Part shown: positions 3,634-56,407 of the stretch, piece after piece
Layout: the number at the start of each line of letters is the position of its first letter
Numbering within the stretch: the stretch's first letter is position 1
Assembly: GCF_002159735.1 (NCBI RefSeq)
Contig: NZ_NFJF01000001.1
Coordinates: 310,001-374,000 of the forward strand
Origin: Olsenella sp. An270
Lineage (GTDB): Bacteria > Actinomycetota > Coriobacteriia > Coriobacteriales > Atopobiaceae
Reading direction: 5' to 3'
DNA length: 64,000 nt
The notes under the pieces: generated by a model
Database searches by the model: none
The model's input: only the letters and a program-made list of their open reading frames with translations
What the model was told of the DNA's origin: nothing
Position numbers and translations under genes: made by a program

Positions 3634-5235
3634 ATGATCATCGAGGAACTCCAGCGCTACGGCATCGCACACACGGAGGAGAAGACCGTCATCGACGCGT
3701 CCCCGGCCGTGCTCATCGAGACCGCCGTCGAGCGCGGCGAGGGCGAGCTCACGAGCACCGGCTCGCTCTCCGTCATCACCGGCCAGTACACCGGCCGTTC
3801 GCCCAAGGACCGCTTCATCGTCGACACGCCCGACGTCCACGACAAGATCGCGTGGGGCAACGTCAACGTGCCGTTCTCCGAGGAGAACTACCAGAAGATC
3901 AAGAGCGAGGTCATCGGCCACCTCTCCGAGCGTCGCCTCTTCGTCGTGCACGGCCTCGCGGGCGCCGAGCGTCGCTACTCCCGCAAGATCTGCGCCATCT
4001 GCGAGCTCGCCAGCCAGGCGCTCTTCGTCCACCAGATGCTCGTCCGTCCCACCGAGGACGAGCTCCGCGACTTTGGCGAGGCCGACTTCGTCGTCATGGC
4101 CGCCCCCACGCTCAAGCTCGACCCCGAGGTCCACGGTACCCACTCCGAGGCCGCCGTCCTCATCAACTTCCAGGAGCGCATGATCCTCGTCGTGGGCACC
4201 CAGTACTCCGGTGAGATCAAGAAGTCGATCTTCTCGGTCATGAACTACCTGCTGCCCGTCGAGGACAACGTGCTCACCATGCACTGCTCCTGCAACATGA
4301 ACCCGCGCTCCCACGGCACCACGGTCTTCTTTGGCCTCTCCGGCACCGGCAAGACCACGCTCTCCGCCGCCGAGGACCGCCTCCTCATCGGCGACGACGA
4401 GCACGGCTGGGCCGAGGACCGCGTCTTCAACATCGAGGGCGGCTGCTACGCCAAGACCATCGACATCACGCCCGAGACCGAGCCGCAGATCTGGAACGCG
4501 ATCCGCTTTGGCTCCATGTGCGAGAACGTGATGGTTGACGACGAGACGCGCGTCGCCGACTACTTTGACACCTCGCTCACCGAGAACGGCCGCGTGGCCT
4601 ACCCGGTCGAGTTCGTGCCCGGCGCCGTGACCAAGGGCCGCGCCAAGCGCACCCCCGACGTCGTGATCTTCCTCACGGCCGACGCCTTCGGCGTGCTGCC
4701 GCCCGTCGCCAAGCTCGACCGCAACGCCGCGATGTACCACTTCATGACCGGCTTCACGTCCAAGGTCGCCGGCACCGAGCGCGGCATCAAGGAGCCGCAG
4801 CCCACGTTCTCCTCGCTCTTCGGCGAGCCGTTCATGCCGCTCGACCCCAACGTCTACGCCCAGATGCTCGGCGAGAAGATCGACAAGGGCGGCGTTCGCG
4901 TCTACCTCATCAACACCGGCTGGACCGGTGGCCCCTACGGCGTGGGCAAGCGCATGAAGCTCGCCTACACCCGCAAGATGGTCGAGGCTGCCCAGTCCGG
5001 CATCATCGACGACTCCGAGTTCGTCCACGACGAGCGCTTCAACCTCGACGTGCCCACCTCCTGCCCGGGCGTGCCCTCCGAGCTGCTCAACGCGCGCAAC
5101 ACCTGGGAGGACCGCGCCGCCTACGACGAGATGGCCGAGAAGCTCGCCCAGATGTTCGTCGACAACGCCGACAAGCGTCTCACCACGATGGCGCCCGAGG
5201 TCCGCGCCGCCGGCCCCAAGCCCATCGGCCGCTAG
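3634..5235 (+). CDS. pckA: Phosphoenolpyruvate carboxykinase (ATP)
   Basis: Interconverts oxaloacetate and phosphoenolpyruvate with ATP/ADP. In anaerobic fermenters it often runs toward oxaloacetate to gain ATP. The 533 residues match the family length. Visible motifs are GQYTGRSPKDRF (substrate loop), the kinase P-loop GLSGTGKTT (about residues 234-242), the metal-binding IGDDEHGW, and NTGWTGGPYGVGKR near the C-terminus. Start at 3634 is set by a perfect AGGAGG at 3623-3628. The gene stands alone between a promoter region and a strong terminator. It has very even high-GC codon use, consistent with strong expression. Confidence 0.98.
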   Translation: MIIEELQRYGIAHTEEKTVIDASPAVLIETAVERGEGELTSTGSLSVITGQYTGRSPKDRFIVDTPDVHDKIAWGNVNVPFSEENYQKIKSEVIGHLSERRLFVVHGLAGAERRYSRKICAICELASQALFVHQMLVRPTEDELRDFGEADFVVMAAPTLKLDPEVHGTHSEAAVLINFQERMILVVGTQYSGEIKKSIFSVMNYLLPVEDNVLTMHCSCNMNPRSHGTTVFFGLSGTGKTTLSAAEDRLLIGDDEHGWAEDRVFNIEGGCYAKTIDITPETEPQIWNAIRFGSMCENVMVDDETRVADYFDTSLTENGRVAYPVEFVPGAVTKGRAKRTPDVVIFLTADAFGVLPPVAKLDRNAAMYHFMTGFTSKVAGTERGIKEPQPTFSSLFGEPFMPLDPNVYAQMLGEKIDKGGVRVYLINTGWTGGPYGVGKRMKLAYTRKMVEAAQSGIIDDSEFVHDERFNLDVPTSCPGVPSELLNARNTWEDRAAYDEMAEKLAQMFVDNADKRLTTMAPEVRAAGPKPIGR

Positions 5236-5320: not shown

Positions 5321-5451
5321 TTTGCCGAGTGTACGAGTTTCCATCGGATTGTCTGAGCGTATGAGCACCCGCGCATGGGTCAACTGCGCAAACGTGCCGG
5401 TGCGAGGACAAGAAGATTCGCTTGTGCCGAGAAACTCGTACACTCGGCAAA
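5321..5451. repeat. 20-bp perfect inverted repeat in the pckA-pta gap
   Basis: TTTGCCGAGTGTACGAGTTT at 5321-5340 recurs as its exact reverse complement at 5432-5451, with a 91-bp spacer that holds smaller hairpins (GCGCA...TGCGC near 5373). It fills most of the 345-bp gap between pckA and pta. No open frame or RNA gene is recognised in that gap. Possible explanations are a small non-autonomous element or a processed hairpin. Confidence 0.7.
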
Positions 5452-11019: not shown

Positions 11020-11394
11020 TGGGAATTAGTCCGTGTCCGTCGCCGCTGCGTCTAGGAATCGCCGCCCTTGTCCGTCCCCCATCTAAGAATCAGCGCCCTT
11101 GTCTGTGCTCCATCTAGGAATCGACGCGTTTGTCCTGATGCGCTCTAGAAACCCACGCTCTTGTCACGGTTCCTTCTAAGAATCGAGGCCCTTGTTGCCA
11201 GGGTTGGGCCCCGCCCATGCCAAGGGAGCGGATTACTAGAAGCTCCCATGACAAGGGCGACGATTACTAGAAGATCTATTGCCCAGGGCGCTGATTCTTG
11301 GGGAACGCGCGGACAAGGGCCGCAATTCCTGGAGGAAATGCGTACAAGGACGGCATTTCCTGGAGCGACCCCGAACAGGGGCGGCTCGACCCGG
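11020..11394. repeat. 31-bp-period inverted tandem array (array 1)
   Basis: Fills most of the 537-bp gap between the ferredoxin and RNA methyltransferase genes. Five clear 22-bp plus-orientation units start at 11051, 11082, 11113, 11144 and 11175, exactly 31 bp apart; consensus TCTAGGAATCG then CCGCCCTTGTC. After a 22-bp centre (11197-11218) the reverse complement occurs at 11219, 11250, 11281, 11312 and 11343, again every 31 bp. Degenerate units flank both ends (about 11020 and 11373). Units are separated by 9 variable bases. No coding frame is supported. Confidence 0.92.
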
Positions 11395-23316: not shown

Positions 23317-24435
23317 CTACTCAGCCGGCCAGGTGAGCAGGATGTCTGCCAGGCCGAGCGCGCAGACCGCCTCGACGACGGGAACCGCCCGCAGGACGGC
23401 GGTGGTGTCGTGACGACCGTGGACGCGCAGGGTCGCGGGCTCCATCGTCTGGAGGTCAACGGAGTCCTGGTCGACCATCACGCTCGAGATGGGCTTGAAC
23501 GCGCACCGCACGAGCACGGGCGCGCCGGTCGTGATGCCGCCGAGGATGCCGCCGGCGTTGTTGGTCCGTGGCGCGCACGTACCGTCGCGTACCTCGTAGG
23601 GGTCGTTGTTCTCGGTCCCGCGCATCCGCGCTGCGCCGAACCCGCGCCCAAACTCGACGCCCTTGACCGAGGGGATGCCAAAGAGGCCTCGCGCGAGGAC
23701 GTTCTCGACGCCGTCGAACATCGGGGAGCCGGAGCCGGCGGGCAGCCCCGTGGCGACGCACTCGACGACGCCGCCCACGGTGTCGCGCGCCGCGCGGGCG
23801 GCGAGCACGGCCTCGACCATGCGAGCCCCCGCGTCGGCGTCGATCGTGGGGATGCGTCGCCCGTCCGCCAGGGCCGCCATCTGCTCCGCGAGCTCGGCGT
23901 TTGCCGCGGGAGAGTTGTCAAGCGCCGAGAAGGGCGCGTCCTCGATTCCCGCGAGCTCCGCCACGTGCGCGCGCACGCTGACGCCCTGGCTCTCGAGCCA
24001 CTGGAGCGCGATGCCTCCGGCGACGCACAGCGGGGCGGTGAGCCTGCCCGAGAAGTGTCCGCCGCCGGGGACGTCCTGAGCCCCGTGCCACTTGGCCCAG
24101 GCGGCGAAGTCGGCGTGGCCCGGTCGCGGGACGGCGAGGATGTTGTCGTAGTCCCCAGAGCGGGTGTTCGTGTTCTCGATGATCGCCGCGAGCGGGGCCC
24201 CGCAGGTCTCGCCGTTCGGGTTGAGCCCGGACACGATCCTGGGCGCGTCCGGCTCCTTGCGCGGGGTGCCCCAGGGGTCCGACCCGGGCGCGCGGCGGGC
24301 GACGAAGGCGGCGAGCGCGCCGAGGTCGACCTTCATGCCGGAGGGAAGCCCCTCGACGACGCAGCCGACGGCGGGGGAGTGCGACTGCCCGAAGACGGTG
24401 ACGCGCAGCGTGGTTCCAAGCGTGGATGGCATCAT
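23317..24435 (-). CDS. aroC: Chorismate synthase
   Basis: Forms chorismate from EPSP using reduced FMN (372 aa). Family blocks are FGQSHSPAVGCVVEGLPSG (catalytic His), ARRAPGSDPWGTPRKE, NTNTRSGDYDN, RPGHADFAAWAKWHG, GGHFSGRLTAP, EGYG-type RARMRGTENND and GGILGGITTGAPV. The start ATG at 24435 overlaps the aroA stop (ATGA) and has GGGAGG directly upstream; the second ATG at 24432 is almost equally placed. Translational coupling to aroA is likely. Confidence 0.96.
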   Translation of the reverse strand: MMPSTLGTTLRVTVFGQSHSPAVGCVVEGLPSGMKVDLGALAAFVARRAPGSDPWGTPRKEPDAPRIVSGLNPNGETCGAPLAAIIENTNTRSGDYDNILAVPRPGHADFAAWAKWHGAQDVPGGGHFSGRLTAPLCVAGGIALQWLESQGVSVRAHVAELAGIEDAPFSALDNSPAANAELAEQMAALADGRRIPTIDADAGARMVEAVLAARAARDTVGGVVECVATGLPAGSGSPMFDGVENVLARGLFGIPSVKGVEFGRGFGAARMRGTENNDPYEVRDGTCAPRTNNAGGILGGITTGAPVLVRCAFKPISSVMVDQDSVDLQTMEPATLRVHGRHDTTAVLRAVPVVEAVCALGLADILLTWPAE

Positions 24436-25751
24436 GCCTCCCTTTCGACCCTGCCTCCAAGCGAGGCCAGGTCATCGAAGAAGCGCGGGTAGGACTTCTC
24501 GACGCACTCGGCGCCGAGGATGGTGGTCGGGGCGTCGCAGCGCGTGGCGAGAATCGCGGCCATCATCGCGATGCGATGGTCGTTCGCGGAGTCGACGGTG
24601 CCGCCGCGCAGCGTCCGGGAACCCGTTATGACGAGACCGTCCTCGGTCGTCTCGACGCTCGCACCGAGGGCGCGCAGCGCCGCGGACACGGTCTCGATGC
24701 GGTCCGACTCCTTGAGCCGCAGGCGCGCCGCGCCAACGAGGCGCGTCGTCCCCTCCGCGAGGGCCGCCGCGGCGGCGAGCGGCGGCACGAGGTCGGGGCA
24801 GTCGCTGACGTCGAGCGTCGCCCCCTTGAGCTCAGTTGGCCGGACGGCGGCGCCGGAGGGGGTGCGTAGGACGTGGGCGCCGAGAAGGGAGAGCGCGGCG
24901 AGGATGGCGCGGTCCCCCTGGGCGCTCGAGGCGTCGAGTCCCCGAACGGCCACGCCGCGGTCGCTCAGGGCACCGGCGACGAGCCAGAACGCGGCGTTGG
25001 ACCAGTCCCCGCCGACGACGAGCGAACCGGGGGACGCCAGCCCGTCCGACGCGGACACGTCGTAGACGAGGGCTGGCGCGCCGGACTCGCTCACGCCGCG
25101 CGTGCGGGAGACGCCAACGCCAAACGCGCGCAGGACGGAGACCGTGAGGTCGATGTAGGGCCTCGACTCGACCGGCTCGGTGACGACGACCTCGACCGGG
25201 GCGCGCAGCAGCGGAGCCGCGAGCATGAGGCCGCTCACGTACTGCGAGGAGACGTTGCCGGCGAGCTCGTAGCGTCCGGCGCGGATGCGCCCGCGCACCT
25301 CGAGCGGGAGGCTGCCCTGGGGGGAGAGCTCGGCGCCGTGCTCGACGAGCTGCTCGTAGAGCGGGGAGAGCGGGCGCTCGGGAAGCCTGCCGCGCCCCGT
25401 CAGCGAGGCGTCGCAGCCGAGCGAGCAGACGACCGGAAGCATGAAGCGCAGCGTGGAGCCGGACTCGCCGCAGTCGAGCGTCGCGGCCCGGCGGGGCTCG
25501 GGAAGGTTGTCCGTGGCCGAGGTCCCGGGGACGGGCCTCACGCGGAACCCGTCCCTCGTTCTGGCGACGCGGGCCCCGAGCGCCTCGAGGCACGAGACGG
25601 TGGCGTCGATGTCTGCGGAGCTGGTCGTGCACGTGACGTCGGTCACGCCCGGGGCGAACGCGGCGCATATGAGGACGCGGTGCGCCTCCGACTTCGATGA
25701 GGGCGCGACGATCTCCCCGGAGAGGGCGCCCGGATGAATGGTGATGTTCAA
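24432..25751 (-). CDS. aroA: 3-phosphoshikimate 1-carboxyvinyltransferase (EPSP synthase)
   Basis: Joins shikimate-3-phosphate with PEP. The 439 aa include APSSKSEAHRVLICAA (PEP/S3P-binding), LDCGESGSTLRFMLPV, GRGRLPERPLSPL, SSQYVSGLMLAAPLL, DCPDLVPPLAAAAALAEGTT and SANDHRIAMMAAI. The best start is TTG 25751, giving the family N-terminus LNITIHPG; the Shine-Dalgarno there is weak. Upstream in-frame ATGs would start inside the intergenic repeat and are not supported. Its 5' flank is repeat copy 1 of the endonuclease element, so its expression may depend on read-through or a local promoter. Confidence 0.94.
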   Translation of the reverse strand: MNITIHPGALSGEIVAPSSKSEAHRVLICAAFAPGVTDVTCTTSSADIDATVSCLEALGARVARTRDGFRVRPVPGTSATDNLPEPRRAATLDCGESGSTLRFMLPVVCSLGCDASLTGRGRLPERPLSPLYEQLVEHGAELSPQGSLPLEVRGRIRAGRYELAGNVSSQYVSGLMLAAPLLRAPVEVVVTEPVESRPYIDLTVSVLRAFGVGVSRTRGVSESGAPALVYDVSASDGLASPGSLVVGGDWSNAAFWLVAGALSDRGVAVRGLDASSAQGDRAILAALSLLGAHVLRTPSGAAVRPTELKGATLDVSDCPDLVPPLAAAAALAEGTTRLVGAARLRLKESDRIETVSAALRALGASVETTEDGLVITGSRTLRGGTVDSANDHRIAMMAAILATRCDAPTTILGAECVEKSYPRFFDDLASLGGRVEREA

Positions 25752-25832: not shown

Positions 25833-25983
25833 GAGGTTATGCGACATGCCCCCAGTGGCAGGTTCTTGTCGCCAGCCTATATAGCTGCGGCTTTGTTGTG
25901 CTTGCGGCCCCGCATAACCTCGACGATGCCGCATAACCTCGACAATGCCGCATAACCTCACGGTGGGCGATAAGGACGGGCGA
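25833..25983. repeat. Flanking direct repeat, copy 1 (151 bp)
   Basis: Same length as copy 2 at 27221-27371, ungapped, with 4 mismatches. It opens with GAGGTTATGCGACAT (25833-25847). It then has a ~63-bp centre and three inverted units CGCATAACCTC at 25911, 25930 and 25949, 19 bp apart. It ends in GATAAGGACGGGC-type repeats that continue to the endonuclease stop codon. It lies in the 254-bp aroA-endonuclease gap. Confidence 0.93.
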
Positions 25984-26005
25984 TAAGGACGGGCGACAAG
26001 GACCC

Positions 26006-26956
26006 CTAGCAGCGCAGCAGCTCCTGGATGAGGTCGTGCTGGCGGCGGTCGAACTCGGGGTCGTTGGGCAGCTTGATGCCAAAGCGCCCGGTCACCTTGG
26101 AGACGAGATGGCGGCGCATCGCGTCGTTGGCCAGCATGCCTGCGGTCACGGAGCGGACCATCCACCCCTCGTCGCGCAGGCCTTCGTTTCTGGTGCTGTC
26201 GGAGTCGACGGCAAGGGCGCTCGAGTGCCAGAGGTAGCTGTCATACTCGAGGATGATCAGCTGGTCAGGCCAGCACAGGTCGACGACCACGTATGGCTTT
26301 CCGATCGCACGCTGCAGCTCGGGTGGAATTTCTACGCGCACGTTAAGCAAGGGGCTGGGGAGCCCGCAGCCGCCAAGCTCCACGGGGAGGGTGAAGACGA
26401 GAACGACGATCGTCTCCATTGGGGAGCGCGACCCAGCGACCACGTGGCCGAGCGCCTCTCGCACGCGCCTCGCGCCGTAGCTGTGGTTCTGACGGAAGTG
26501 TGCCCGGAGGTCTTCCGGGCGGGCGAGGGCGGGGCGAGCGACGAAGCCGTCCCTGGCGTTGGGCGTGCGACCGTAGTCGCCGCAGACCTCCATGGCGCTG
26601 ACGATCGCTCTGACGAGGCTTTGTCCCGCCGAGAGACTCTGCAGGCAGAAGCTTGGCGACGCAATGAGTACCTGGGGCATCAGCTGGTAGAGCGCTCCGT
26701 GGGGCAGCGGCGTTGACCAGACGTGGGATACGATCCGACGCGAGTTGATTCTCTCGCCGGGATGCGAGACGAGAACGTGAAGCGGCCGTTCGACCGTCGC
26801 CTCGAGCCGCGCCGCCCGGAGGATGGAGTCGTCGAGCGCGCATGAGGACGTGGTGGCCCATTCGCGGGCGGAAACCTCAACGGGAGGGCCAATCCTGCGA
26901 AGAAGCCCCGGTTCCGCCCAGCGCGCGAGTGCCGATGTGCCGTCAACGGTAAGCAT
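26006..26956 (-). CDS. DUF559-like (Vsr/PD-(D/E)XK fold) endonuclease-domain protein, repeat-flanked
   Basis: A 316-aa protein. The N-terminal ~120 residues resemble the AbiEi-like/HTH-associated part of coriobacterial proteins (SHVWSTPLPHGALY, LIASPSFCLQSLS, MEVCGDYG). A helical GARRVREALGHVVAGSRSPMET segment follows, then a nuclease core VVVDLCWPDQLIILEYDSYLWH. The core's Asp226, Glu237, Asp239 and His244 fit the DUF559/Vsr PD-(D/E)XK pattern. Start ATG 26956 is preferred: a minus-strand TATAGT ends seven bases before it, as for leaderless mRNAs, and no Shine-Dalgarno marks the longer options (ATG 26989 or 27136). It interrupts the aro operon between two 151-bp direct repeats. GC content looks lower than its neighbours. 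Function (defence, homing or selfish) is unknown. Confidence 0.8.
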   Translation of the reverse strand: MLTVDGTSALARWAEPGLLRRIGPPVEVSAREWATTSSCALDDSILRAARLEATVERPLHVLVSHPGERINSRRIVSHVWSTPLPHGALYQLMPQVLIASPSFCLQSLSAGQSLVRAIVSAMEVCGDYGRTPNARDGFVARPALARPEDLRAHFRQNHSYGARRVREALGHVVAGSRSPMETIVVLVFTLPVELGGCGLPSPLLNVRVEIPPELQRAIGKPYVVVDLCWPDQLIILEYDSYLWHSSALAVDSDSTRNEGLRDEGWMVRSVTAGMLANDAMRRHLVSKVTGRFGIKLPNDPEFDRRQHDLIQELLRC

Positions 26957-27201
26957 GCGGACGACTATACGCAGACATGCTCCCACCATTCTCCCGATGG
27001 CGGACACCAAGCTGACACGACCGCTCTGCCTCGGCTTCCTCGGGTGGGTCCCGGTGCGCGGCCCGGGAAGAAAACGGTAACCGGTCAAGGGCACGGTGCG
27101 GACGGTAGGGGAGGGCGCTCGCGGGAGGAACCTCATGGCTCAATGTGGCGCGCGATGGTCTCTCGCGTCGACCCATCCGGGGAAGGCTGCCCCGCCCTTC
27201 C
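26957..27201. other. Intergenic stretch upstream of the endonuclease
   Basis: The 423-bp gap from 26957 to 27379 holds the probable endonuclease -10 (TATAGT, minus strand, 26964-26969), this stretch without a recognisable gene or repeat, and then repeat copy 2 with one extra unit. An in-frame extension of the endonuclease runs to 27136 but has no start signal. Confidence 0.5.
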
Positions 27202-27371
27202 GAGGTAATGCGACATCCCTGAGGTTATGCGACATGCCCCCAGTGGCAGGTTCTTGTCGCCAGCCTATCTAGCTGCGGCTTTGTTGTACTTGCGACCCCG
27301 CATAACCTCGACGATGCCGCATAACCTCGACAATGCCGCATAACCTCACGGCGGGCGATAAGGACGGGCGA
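27202..27371. repeat. Flanking direct repeat, copy 2, with one extra 19-bp unit
   Basis: Positions 27221-27371 match copy 1 (25833-25983) with 4 differences in 151 bp. A further plus unit GAGGTAATGCGACAT at 27202-27216 lies exactly 19 bp before the first shared unit. Three inverted CGCATAACCTC units are at 27299, 27318 and 27337. The end abuts the aroB stop codon. Confidence 0.93.
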
Positions 27372-27379
27372 GAAGGGCG

Positions 27380-28453
27380 CTAGCGGCCGAGGTCGATAAG
27401 GCGGCGCAGGTCGTCGAGGCCGACGCAGCGGACCTCGCAGCGCCCGACCTCACGGGGAACGACGACGTTGACTGCGGCGCCGTGCCGCTTCTTGTCGTGC
27501 GCGGCGTAGCGCATGAGCAGGTCGGTGGGCAGCTCGGTCGAGGTGGGGAGCCCGTGGGCGGCGACGCAGCGCTCGATGCGACCGGCGGTCTGCACGCTGC
27601 ACCAGCCCAGGGCAGCGGAGCCCCGCGCAATCACGCACAGACCCGCGGCGACGCAGGAGCCGTGCCCGAGCGAGAAGTCGCTCGCCGACTCGATGGCATG
27701 GCCGACGGTGTGACCGAGGTTGAGCGTCTGGCGAAGGCCCCCCTCGCGCTCGTCGGCGACCACGACGTCGCGCTTGATGCGGACGTTGCGCGCGACGACG
27801 TCGACGAGCGTGGCTGCGCCGCGGCTCTCCGTGAGGGGGTGCGCGGTGAGCGTGTCGAGCAGGTCGGCGTCGGCGAGGACGGCGTGCTTGACGACCTCGC
27901 CGCACGAATCCCGGAAGAGCTCAGGGGGGACCGTGGCGAGCGCGTCGACGTCTGCGACGACGAGGCTCGGCTGCCAGAAGGCGCCGACCAGGTTCTTTCC
28001 CGCCGTGAGGTCGACCGCGGTCTTGCCGCCTACGGAGGAGTCCACCATTGCGAGCAGCGAGGTCGGAACCTGCACGACCTTGATCCCACGCAGGTAGAGG
28101 GCGGCCGCGAGACCGCCCATGTCGCCGGTCACCCCGCCGCCGAGCGCGACCACGACGTCGTCGCGCGTGAGCTCCCGCTCGGCGAGGTCCTCGAGGATTC
28201 CCCCGAGCGTGGCGAGCGTCTTGCTGGCCTCCCCGGCGGGGAAGGTGATTCTCCCCACAACGTCGAGACCGGCCGCCCCGAGCGCCGCCTCGACGCGGTC
28301 GGCGTAGAGCGGCCCGACGTTGGTCTCGGTCACGACGCAGCAGCGCCCGAGCTTCGTGACGTCGCGGACGAGCTCGCCGATATGGTCGAGAAGCCCCGCT
28401 CCGACGAGCACGTCGTAGGGGCGCGACGAGGTGGCGACGTGGATCTGCTCCAT
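27380..28453 (-). CDS. aroB: 3-dehydroquinate synthase
   Basis: NAD-dependent cyclisation of DAHP to 3-dehydroquinate (357 aa). The protein shows the NAD/metal-site blocks FPAGEASKTL, VVALGGGVTGDMGGLAAA, QVPTSLLAMVDSSVGGKTAVD, GKNLVGAFWQP, and the zinc-ligand region GEVVKHA with later LNLGHTVGHAIE and HG. The start at 28453 lies one base after the tyrA stop, preceded by GAGGG within the tyrA end. Downstream the operon is broken by the repeat-flanked endonuclease before aroA. Confidence 0.96.
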   Translation of the reverse strand: MEQIHVATSSRPYDVLVGAGLLDHIGELVRDVTKLGRCCVVTETNVGPLYADRVEAALGAAGLDVVGRITFPAGEASKTLATLGGILEDLAERELTRDDVVVALGGGVTGDMGGLAAALYLRGIKVVQVPTSLLAMVDSSVGGKTAVDLTAGKNLVGAFWQPSLVVADVDALATVPPELFRDSCGEVVKHAVLADADLLDTLTAHPLTESRGAATLVDVVARNVRIKRDVVVADEREGGLRQTLNLGHTVGHAIESASDFSLGHGSCVAAGLCVIARGSAALGWCSVQTAGRIERCVAAHGLPTSTELPTDLLMRYAAHDKKRHGAAVNVVVPREVGRCEVRCVGLDDLRRLIDLGR

Positions 28454-48508: not shown

Positions 48509-48817
48509 ATGTACGCAATCGTAGCAACTGGTGGCAAGCAGTATAAGGTTGCCAAGGGCGACGTCATCGACGTCGAGAAGCTCGACGCGCAGCCTGGCGA
48601 GAAGGTCGAGCTCCCGGTCCTTCTCGTGAACGACGGCACCAAGACCATCGTTGGTTCCACCCCCCTCGAGGGCAAGACCGTCACCGCGGAGGTCGTCGAG
48701 CAGTTCAAGGGCGAGAAGGTCCTCGTCTTTAAGCTCAAGAAGCGCAAGCGCTATCACCGCGCCAACGGCCACCGTCAGAACCTGACGAAGCTCAAGGTCG
48801 TTGAGATTCCCGCGTAA
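48509..48817 (+). CDS. rplU: 50S ribosomal protein L21
   Basis: A 102-aa ribosomal protein. MYAIVATGGKQYKVAKGDVIDVEKL is the family N-terminus and KVLVFKLKKRKRYHRANGHRQNLT its rRNA-binding end. It has its own strong promoter, GAAGGG before the ATG, and rpmA 36 bp later. Confidence 0.98.
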   Translation: MYAIVATGGKQYKVAKGDVIDVEKLDAQPGEKVELPVLLVNDGTKTIVGSTPLEGKTVTAEVVEQFKGEKVLVFKLKKRKRYHRANGHRQNLTKLKVVEIPA

Positions 48818-56129: not shown

Positions 56130-56407
56130 GATTCGTCGTTCTTGTCGCCAGAGCCTCCAGGAATCGCCGCCCCTGTCACGGTGCCTTCTAAAAAATCCCG
56201 GGCTTGTCCTTGCGTTTTCTGCAAATCGCCGCTCTTGTCACGGTGCCTTCTAAGAAATCCCGGGCTTGTCCTGATGGGTTCTAAGAATCGGGAGGTTTGT
56301 CTGTCCGAAGCCCCGTCTTGACGTACAAGGGCGGCGATTTCTGGATCGGCCTCGGACAAGGGCGCCGGTTCCTAGAGGCGCGGGCGACAAGGACGGCGAT
56401 TCTCGGA
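56125..56407. repeat. 31-bp-period inverted tandem array (array 2)
   Basis: Same repeat family as array 1, filling the 306-bp gap between the convergent dinB and histidine-kinase genes. Plus units (22 bp) start at 56125, 56156, 56187, 56218, 56249 and 56280, every 31 bp exactly. A 22-bp centre spans 56302-56323. Minus units start at 56324, 56355 and 56386. Units at 56187 and 56249 are nearly identical, and both follow the 9-bp spacer ACGGTGCCT, pointing to a 62-bp internal duplication. The dinB stop codon is in the first unit. No gene is supported here. Confidence 0.93.

Follow-up and report, generated by a model that had tools for sequence, protein, structure and literature searches.

A nuclease-like gene lying between aroB and aroA in the gut bacterium Olsenella sp. 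An270, together with the repeat elements on either side of it, is best explained as one unit of a multi-family nuclease-repeat system, a reading that is given a probability of a little under 60%. Such a unit would consist of an element, a nuclease gene, and a second element, with each nuclease lineage having its own iteron 'code' and with gene-free copies of its elements scattered between host genes. The architecture, the gene-specific iterons, the co-occurrence of genes and iterons, three sites that alternate between relatives, and the purifying selection on homologues can all be read from the sequences compared; binding, cutting, and mobility of the unit are postulated from them. The window, i.e., the whole stretch of DNA that was analyzed, spans 64,000 nucleotides of contig NZ_NFJF01000001.1.

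The Unit at the aroB-aroA Junction

The open reading frame of the nuclease-like gene (26,006–26,956, minus strand) encodes 316 amino acids. Its upstream neighbor is aroB (27,380–28,453, minus strand; Pfam DHQ_synthase, E 2.1e-43) and its downstream neighbor aroA (24,432–25,751, minus strand; Pfam EPSP_synthase, E 8.7e-92). A preliminary description of the window had placed a 316-residue gene between aroB and aroA and between direct repeats, with no transposase; the reading frame and the Pfam matches confirm the placement, and no transposase occurs among the direct neighbors, which are aroB and aroA. The two repeats (25,833–25,983 and 27,221–27,371, spaced by 1,388 bp) were described as ungapped with 4 differences in 151 positions, and an exact recount agrees (mismatches at 25,881, 25,900, 25,907, and 25,964). 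Stretched to 159 nt, the pair has 6 mismatches, and BLAST within the genome matches one repeat to the other with an E-value of 2e-70.

Each repeat holds an iteron element, made of one or two inward copies of GAGGTTATGCG (one of them with an A), a core (GTTCTTGTCGCC-AGCCTAT-CTAGCTGCGG), and three inverted copies, all on a 19-bp grid, so that paired iterons begin 19 bp apart. The upstream element, on the aroB side (27,202–27,347), has GAGGTWATGCG iterons at 27,202 and 27,221, the core at 27,250–27,278 (plus strand), and inverted iterons at 27,299, 27,318, and 27,337; this right-hand element starts one iteron ahead of the 151-bp repeat. The downstream element, on the aroA side (25,833–25,959), retains one intact iteron at 25,833, a core at 25,862–25,890 (plus strand) that differs from the upstream one by one base, and inverted iterons at 25,911, 25,930, and 25,949.

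A -10-like box, TATAGT (26,964–26,969, minus strand), lies 7 nt ahead of the ATG. Its position suggests that the mRNA is leaderless and that the promoter lies some 230 bp away from the upstream element. The same box is found 7–9 nt ahead of the ATG in all six genomes carrying the gene at the aro locus, and also in another genome, G011.

The Nuclease-Like Protein

The AlphaFold2 model of the 316-residue protein has a pLDDT of 91.8 and a pTM of 0.89, with residues 241–244 below 50. Residues 178–293 match the homing-endonuclease domain of I-Bth0305I (3r3p; Z 9.9, 2.5 Å over 94 residues), as well as Vsr (Z 7.9) and TnsA (Z 6.5), and the nuclease reading of the preliminary description is therefore supported by the matches of the modeled catalytic domain to Vsr-type nucleases (Z 9.9 and 7.9). 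Residues 1–174, modeled alone (pLDDT 93.0), have as their best match among those listed residues 68–195 of AbiEi (6y8q; Z 7.2 over 112 residues), a score in the range of chance matches, followed by Rv2827c (Z 4.8) and then MenT1. These statements on folds rest on a second-look aligner (VIA), Foldseek having given no match at E ≤ 0.001 for the full-length and N-terminal models. The protein thus models as an AbiEi-C-terminal-like domain (a weak match, approximately residues 1–174) joined to a Vsr/EDxHD-type nuclease domain (approximately 178–293).

Among the residues named beforehand as catalytic, D226, E237, and H244 show no variation in either of two 31-protein sets, but D239 varies (90% in one set, less in the other); S240 is also invariant, together with these three, in 31 proteins. 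Nine pairs of homologues from other genomes have dN/dS values of 0.13–0.21, indicating purifying selection and, with the invariant catalytic positions, making these look like working genes.

Profile searches at E ≤ 0.1 matched 28 of 31 homologues to MTES_1575 (PF18741; best 1e-6) and 15 of 31 to DUF559 (PF04480; best 4.4e-5), the other Pfam matches of the family being two one-offs. The 316-residue protein itself matches MTES_1575 with an E-value of 0.043 and 14.3 bits, below the gathering cut-off of 38.2, and gives no DUF559 match. For 10 family proteins searched against NCBIfam, only one chance-like match was returned. Judged by its modeled fold and via its better-scoring homologues, the protein is related to DUF559 and MTES_1575.

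A Family of Genes with Their Own Flanking Repeats

A protein search of the genome yielded about 13 paralogues of the 316-residue protein. Across the genus, homologues at 54–68% identity occupy about nine chromosomal places and are usually flanked by elements, with iterons that differ. The gene tree mostly groups homologues by place (support 82/74 for the aro group and 47/11 for the rpmB group), so that the insertions look old and subsequently inherited.

Upstream and downstream flanks match each other at 35 bits or more in 10 of the 14 family members of the genome, compared with 1 of 83 control genes, and a member's own downstream flank is the best of the 14 in 11 of 14 cases. In this test, L043/L047 and L045/L049 were counted once each, and the start of L039 was set by hand. 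For 30 homologue loci of the genus, 26 showed a flank-to-flank match at E ≤ 1e-3, a count made without controls (three gave none, and one was unusable at a contig end). A set of named loci from Olsenella, Thermophilibacter, and other Atopobiaceae gave matching flanks in 24 of 30 cases, versus 0 of 29 neighboring genes; it excludes 4 of 34 loci for incomplete flanks, does not use L165, and comes partly from the same genomes as the preceding set (e.g., L134 is on a G030 contig). Four of the 14 own members and six of the 30 named loci fall below the threshold. Of the 24 positive named loci, 10 have their best flank match in inverted orientation, an arrangement not accounted for by simple deletion between direct repeats.

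What had been described as a small unit is, therefore, indeed a gene plus repeats, but not a lone one: it is one of about 14 family members in the genome, most with their own repeat type. Repeats scattered with no tie to this protein family would have spoken against such a unit; they are instead linked to it, by the gene-specific flanks (10 of 14) and by the co-distribution of three iteron types described below.

The core pattern was found in 34 of 88 flanks, mostly of one subfamily, and recurs beside homologues with other iterons. As a universal mark of the family, the core motif was rejected on this count.

Dispersed Elements in the Genome

The genome holds 15 copies of the window-family element, two at aro and 13 at other places, which were found by searching the genome with the right-hand element and then inspecting the iteron architecture. 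The repeats, first reported as one pair, do form a real pair, but they are also members of a dispersed iteron family with 13 further places. One more place, L034, has only the core, with another iteron; at about 3900–4030 of this locus lies an orphan element with the iteron GTGTGTACGAAGTTGC, which flanks the 'com' units of G004 and G015, and no gene lineage carrying this iteron was noticed in the An270 genome.

Each of the 13 solo elements is found at predicted genes or between them, and the gaps concerned include codirectional, divergent, and convergent ones. There is one overlap with a weakly scored short ORF call and one contact with a short gene call, all calls coming from a simple codon-usage script and not from a standard gene finder. 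Their neighbors, presumably including ftsH, guaB-leuS, dnaE, and uvrC (names read off translations), have unrelated functions, and a regulatory site for one pathway was discarded on that ground.

Of the 15 copies in the An270 genome (G000), 12 have an element center of 67 bp, while all 20 copies measured in G030 and G027 have one of 66 bp. Lengths were corrected by 19 or 38 bp for unrecognized inner iterons, and one G000 copy was assigned from its total length. Iterons and center length vary between species as a set. Within the genome, the dispersed copies are only 68–75% identical to the window copies over long matches. Taken with the species-wise change, this low identity would mean that every site has long been under selection or, alternatively, that elements turn over where they are.

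The repeats had been called structured, a claim that the spacers do not bear out. Within-element complementarity between left and right halves was not clearly above that of shuffles and between-element pairs (p 0.06, 0.58, 0.07, and 0.98 for sets of 19, 13, 11, and 9 elements, those with unequal spacer lengths being excluded), so that double-stranded binding sites fit better. A long RNA or single-stranded DNA hairpin as the functional form is, thus, disfavored, although two of the four sets lean that way. A known RNA was also discarded, as Rfam gave one gathering match in 8 sources, a tRNA.

Solo elements are not limited to one family. Copies of five paralogue repeat types (L036, L040, L043, L044, and L045) were found without a gene in 230 kb, a count made without a shuffled control, and three such elements lie inside the window. 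Two of these (11,056–11,328 and 56,161–56,402) belong to a second family, whose iteron, GACAAGGGCGGCGATTC, flanks the paralogue L044, and consist of degenerate copies; the remaining one (5,326–5,446) belongs to a third family, with the iteron CGAGTGTACGAGTTT that flanks the paralogue L045. The 17-bp L044 iteron has 36 exact copies in the genome, and its control has 0.

A further motif, GGCGANAAGRNC, occurs 27 times in the window against 0.45 expected (e.g., at 1228–1255, 25,966–26,003, 48,596–48,721, and 56,138–56,394). Its density is 2.6 per kb between genes versus 0.25 per kb inside them, about a tenfold difference, and it is also present in element cores and just outside many elements. On its distribution, it could be an insertion target.

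Gene Lineage and Iterons across the Genus

Co-distribution was scored over 31 genomes of the genus, the carriers of each gene lineage being set by a mechanical iteron count in gene flanks. For the TATGCG type, at least six tandem matches were found in all 6 carriers and in 2 of the 25 other genomes (G019 and G027, which lack the gene); elsewhere there were single unrelated-looking matches in G001 and G018 and none in the other 21. The GGGTATGTACACC type passed the threshold in 4 of 5 carriers versus 0 of 26 others, with 18–43 matches in these four and none in the fifth, G024, whose elements hold GGGTATGTACACC singly; 1–4 matches were found in G001, G013, G015, and G018, and none in the rest. 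For the GGGTACGTACAC type, the threshold was passed by 4 of 6 carriers (48, 12, 9, and 8 matches in G007, G014, G020, and G008, with 4 and 1 in the carriers G013 and G005) versus 1 of 25 others, this being G029, with 7 matches and no gene; G015 has 2. Fisher p-values are 4e-5, 2e-4, and 2e-3 for TATGCG, GGGTATGTACACC, and GGGTACGTACAC, respectively, and serve only as a guide, being uncorrected for kinship. Iterons without the gene thus occur in G019, G027, and G029, the first two being assemblies that are 76% and 89% complete. For three iteron types, the genomes with dispersed copies can largely be told from the iteron found next to the gene.

Occupied, Single-Element, and Empty Sites

For 30 of the 31 genomes (An270 included, G028 left out), the aroB-aroA junctions were set side by side. 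Six junctions (G000, G030, G026, G015, G004, and G023) have the gene with an iteron element on either side; two (G027 and G019) have a single element and no gene; and 22 have neither, five with a gap of about 80–125 bp and 17 tight. Seven of these 22 were read letter by letter, the remaining gaps being too short for an element. The 22 junctions without gene and element agree with the proposal that the unit was inserted in the aro operon. The gene is not fixed among relatives, being present at this place in 6 of 30 only, and the single-element junctions that the preliminary description proposed to look for in related genomes exist in 2 of 30. Beyond the downstream element of G023 comes a run of further degenerate inverted iterons (L103, after about position 2640).

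In the aroB tree, a single clade of 10 (ultrafast bootstrap 99) comprises the carriers, the single-element genomes, and two genomes that have neither. Each single-element genome is sister to a gene carrier (G027 to G030 and G019 to G026), as expected if gene loss leaves one element. Such loss is the simplest reading of the single-element state at aro; alternatively, these sequences may reflect repeated gain into a resident element.

An alternation between one element and a unit is found at three sites, the aro junction and two others. At the second, G014 has a unit and G029 a single element that matches the left one of G014; the flanking DNA is 93–95% identical, and the stretch to the right of the G029 element differs, which is not what a clean crossover would give. 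At the third, G024 has a unit between genes (92% and 62% identical) that flank a solo element in G027.

The G027 assembly calls for some care. One of its contigs is 98% identical to G026 over 5.6 kb (L201, G026:C43, and L202, G027:C159), a stretch with two solo CGGTTATGCGCA elements 3.5 kb apart, and its aro junction is clearly unlike those of G026 and G030. Recent exchange or a mixed assembly of G027 could account for this likeness. Likewise, a G030 element and a G027 element (L053 and L066) are 99% identical over their full length, far above other same-place pairs, which points to recent transfer or assembly mixing. From these comparisons, the G027 assembly appears to be mixed in part, so that the cases depending on it are weaker but still stand. 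For elements at the same place, vertical inheritance is borne out between G030 and G027 but did not emerge between G000 and G030, whose same-place cores are no more alike than random pairs.

In G004 and G015 (L135 and L136), the aro unit is bordered on either outer side by a direct repeat of 20–29 bp that contains GCGTTTCTCGCCTG and resembles a target duplication. Such repeats were not outstanding in 21 of 23 units tested, only these two related aro units exceeding all mismatched pairs (mean score of flank pairs 9.3 for matched versus 8.2 for mismatched pairs), and target-site duplication was rejected as a general mark.

Proposed Mechanism and Alternative Explanations

In the proposed mechanism, the protein would bind double-stranded DNA at its own iterons, and the Vsr/EDxHD domain would nick or cut at or near the element core. 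The break could let the element, or the whole unit, be repair-copied into places with a resident element, in a homing-like manner. Recombination between the two flanking elements would delete the gene and leave one element. By analogy, the system would work like REP-RAYT, with the nuclease spreading and keeping up its own repeats, using an unrelated enzyme. Several observations speak against this reading: iterons in G019, G027, and G029 in the absence of the gene; few or no dispersed tandem copies in the carriers G024, G005, and G013; duplication-like repeats at a single locus; own members and named loci below the flank threshold; inverted best matches at 10 positive named loci; the scarcity of flanked loci in other families of the order; and the same-place cores of G000 and G030, which resemble each other no more than random pairs do. 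Of the earlier suggestion of a mobile or selfish unit, possibly homing or defensive, the homing-like part is possible, while the defensive part found no PADLOC match for 6 family proteins.

The alternative that survives best, although unlikely, takes the protein to be an AbiEi-type, repressor-like factor with the flanking iterons as its operators and the solo elements as recombination remnants, perhaps kept as a regulon. The resemblance of the N-terminal domain to the AbiEi C-terminal domain (Z 7.2) and the one-element junctions beside gene carriers are in keeping with this, and AbiEi and Rv2827c are described as binding inverted repeats in their own promoters (PMC7319586). Distances divide the family: in a 38–41% identical subfamily, the upstream repeat is nearer, ending 83–126 bp before the start at positive loci, as an operator might, whereas the window's upstream element stops about 245 bp short of the nuclease start, beyond the TATAGT box, and is therefore not a classical promoter operator; moreover, there is a second element on the downstream side. 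Gaps of all three kinds (divergent, convergent, and codirectional) hold solo elements next to unrelated genes, the structural match covers AbiEi residues 68–195 and not the AbiEi N-terminal DNA-binding domain, and a nuclease domain with conserved catalytic residues would be left unexplained.

A clearly less probable alternative is that independent, MITE-like repeats are moved by an unrelated factor, the nuclease genes being passengers caught between copies. Solo elements do outnumber genes, and G019, G027, and G029 have iterons but not the gene (with assemblies 76% and 89% complete for the first two), but passengers would not be expected to have, in most family members, their own repeat type, nor does this explanation predict that the iteron at the gene's side tells which genomes hold dispersed copies; control genes of the same genomes are, besides, almost never flanked.

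Defense or addiction, in which the nuclease attacks phage or rival DNA and dispersed elements mark or protect the chromosome, is very unlikely. Vsr-type domains are reported in conflict systems (e.g., a Vsr fusion, PMC3710099), and there are up to 14 matches per genome in the order, but PADLOC gave no match for the 6 family proteins searched, and the flanking genes change from place to place, so there is no fixed partner. Phage or plasmid cargo was likewise rejected, with no match in the phage records searched; the plasmid and viral search gave a match of 25% identity to a 900-kb Collinsella record labeled a plasmid, and one weak viral contig. Absence from phage records neither helps nor hurts the defense reading.

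Least credible is that the elements are host chromosome-organizing or regulatory sites colonized by the nuclease family. Species do share some positions and a strict geometry (12 of 15 G000 copies have a 67-bp center, and all 20 measured copies of G030 and G027 one of 66 bp), but any one iteron type is missing from most genomes of the genus, so that no single type can be a general host need.

Occurrence beyond the Genus and Significance

Of 149 genomes sampled across the order, 10 of them belonging to this genus, 119 have homologues. In other families of the order, flanking repeats are present at 3 of 19 loci, counted without control genes and after exclusion of 2 of 21 loci without a clear ORF. 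At the one such locus followed up (in G120), the repeat is at the two flanks only, with no dispersed copies. Flanking may, on this comparison, be older or more general than dispersal, or dispersal may have been lost.

If the nuclease makes or keeps the repeats, it would be a second, unrelated maker of dispersed bacterial repeats besides tyrosine transposases, and repeats around uncharacterized DUF559-type genes would gain a cause. A broader claim, held tentatively and at slightly less than even odds, is that of a new repeat-making class, in which AbiEi/Vsr-type nucleases, in about ten or more parallel lineages in one genome and with private iteron codes, spread and maintain their own dispersed elements and home between resident ones. 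On that view, unrelated enzymes would have given rise to REP-like landscapes on at least two occasions. The natural protein-iteron pairs of one genus (about 65% identical proteins with different iterons) provide a set for reading a DNA-recognition code, and also a test of how selfish genes keep multi-copy sites. Among the best matches listed in a search of open-access titles and abstracts, no description of repeats linked to this protein family was found, and these gene-plus-repeat systems seem to form a selfish family not described before.

Comparison with Known Systems

Relative to DUF559 and MTES_1575 proteins, the 316-residue protein differs in scoring below the Pfam gathering threshold (14.3 versus 38.2 bits). 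Compared with insertion sequences and MITEs, the unit has no transposase among its direct neighbors, and a duplication-like repeat of 20–29 bp at one locus only. AbiEi and Rv2827c may share the fold of the N-terminal domain (Z 7.2 and 4.8), but no N-terminal DNA-binding domain is matched here and a nuclease domain is added. In contrast to type IV toxin-antitoxin loci, no AbiEii (DUF1814) toxin gene lies beside the gene, its neighbors being aroB and aroA by Pfam (relatives were judged by eye).

The target of a homing endonuclease is one site, interrupted by its gene. Here, by contrast, the putative target is dispersed, multi-copy, and kept on both sides of the gene, and the gene is chromosomal, with no match in the phage records searched. 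The likeness to EDxHD homing endonucleases lies in the free-standing gene and in I-Bth0305I being the closest solved fold of the catalytic domain; with a Z of 9.9 and D226, E237, and H244 conserved, but D239 varying, the EDxHD motif is a candidate assignment. The I-Bth0305I target is given as nearly 60 bp in a review (PMC3943268).

The closest parallel is REP-RAYT, in which, as reported in PMC2817692, the gene is flanked by its own repeats, repeats and gene co-vary, the gene lineage goes with repeat abundance, and the repeats are extragenic. Here, too, the gene lies between two copies of its own repeat (in 10 of 14 own members and 24 of 30 named loci), and the gene lineage tracks dispersed cognate repeats for three iteron types, with G024, G005, G013, G019, G027, and G029 as exceptions. 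The enzyme, however, models as a Vsr/EDxHD fold, whereas RAYT is a tyrosine transposase related to IS200/IS605. The repeats are iteron arrays around a core, whereas REPs are described as palindromes of 20–40 bp (PMC3733652); flanking copies are direct or inverted and not always inverted; and there are 15 window-family copies versus usually more than 100 REPs per genome. The only close parallel found, REP-RAYT, is thus not homologous, the likeness lying in the way of working.
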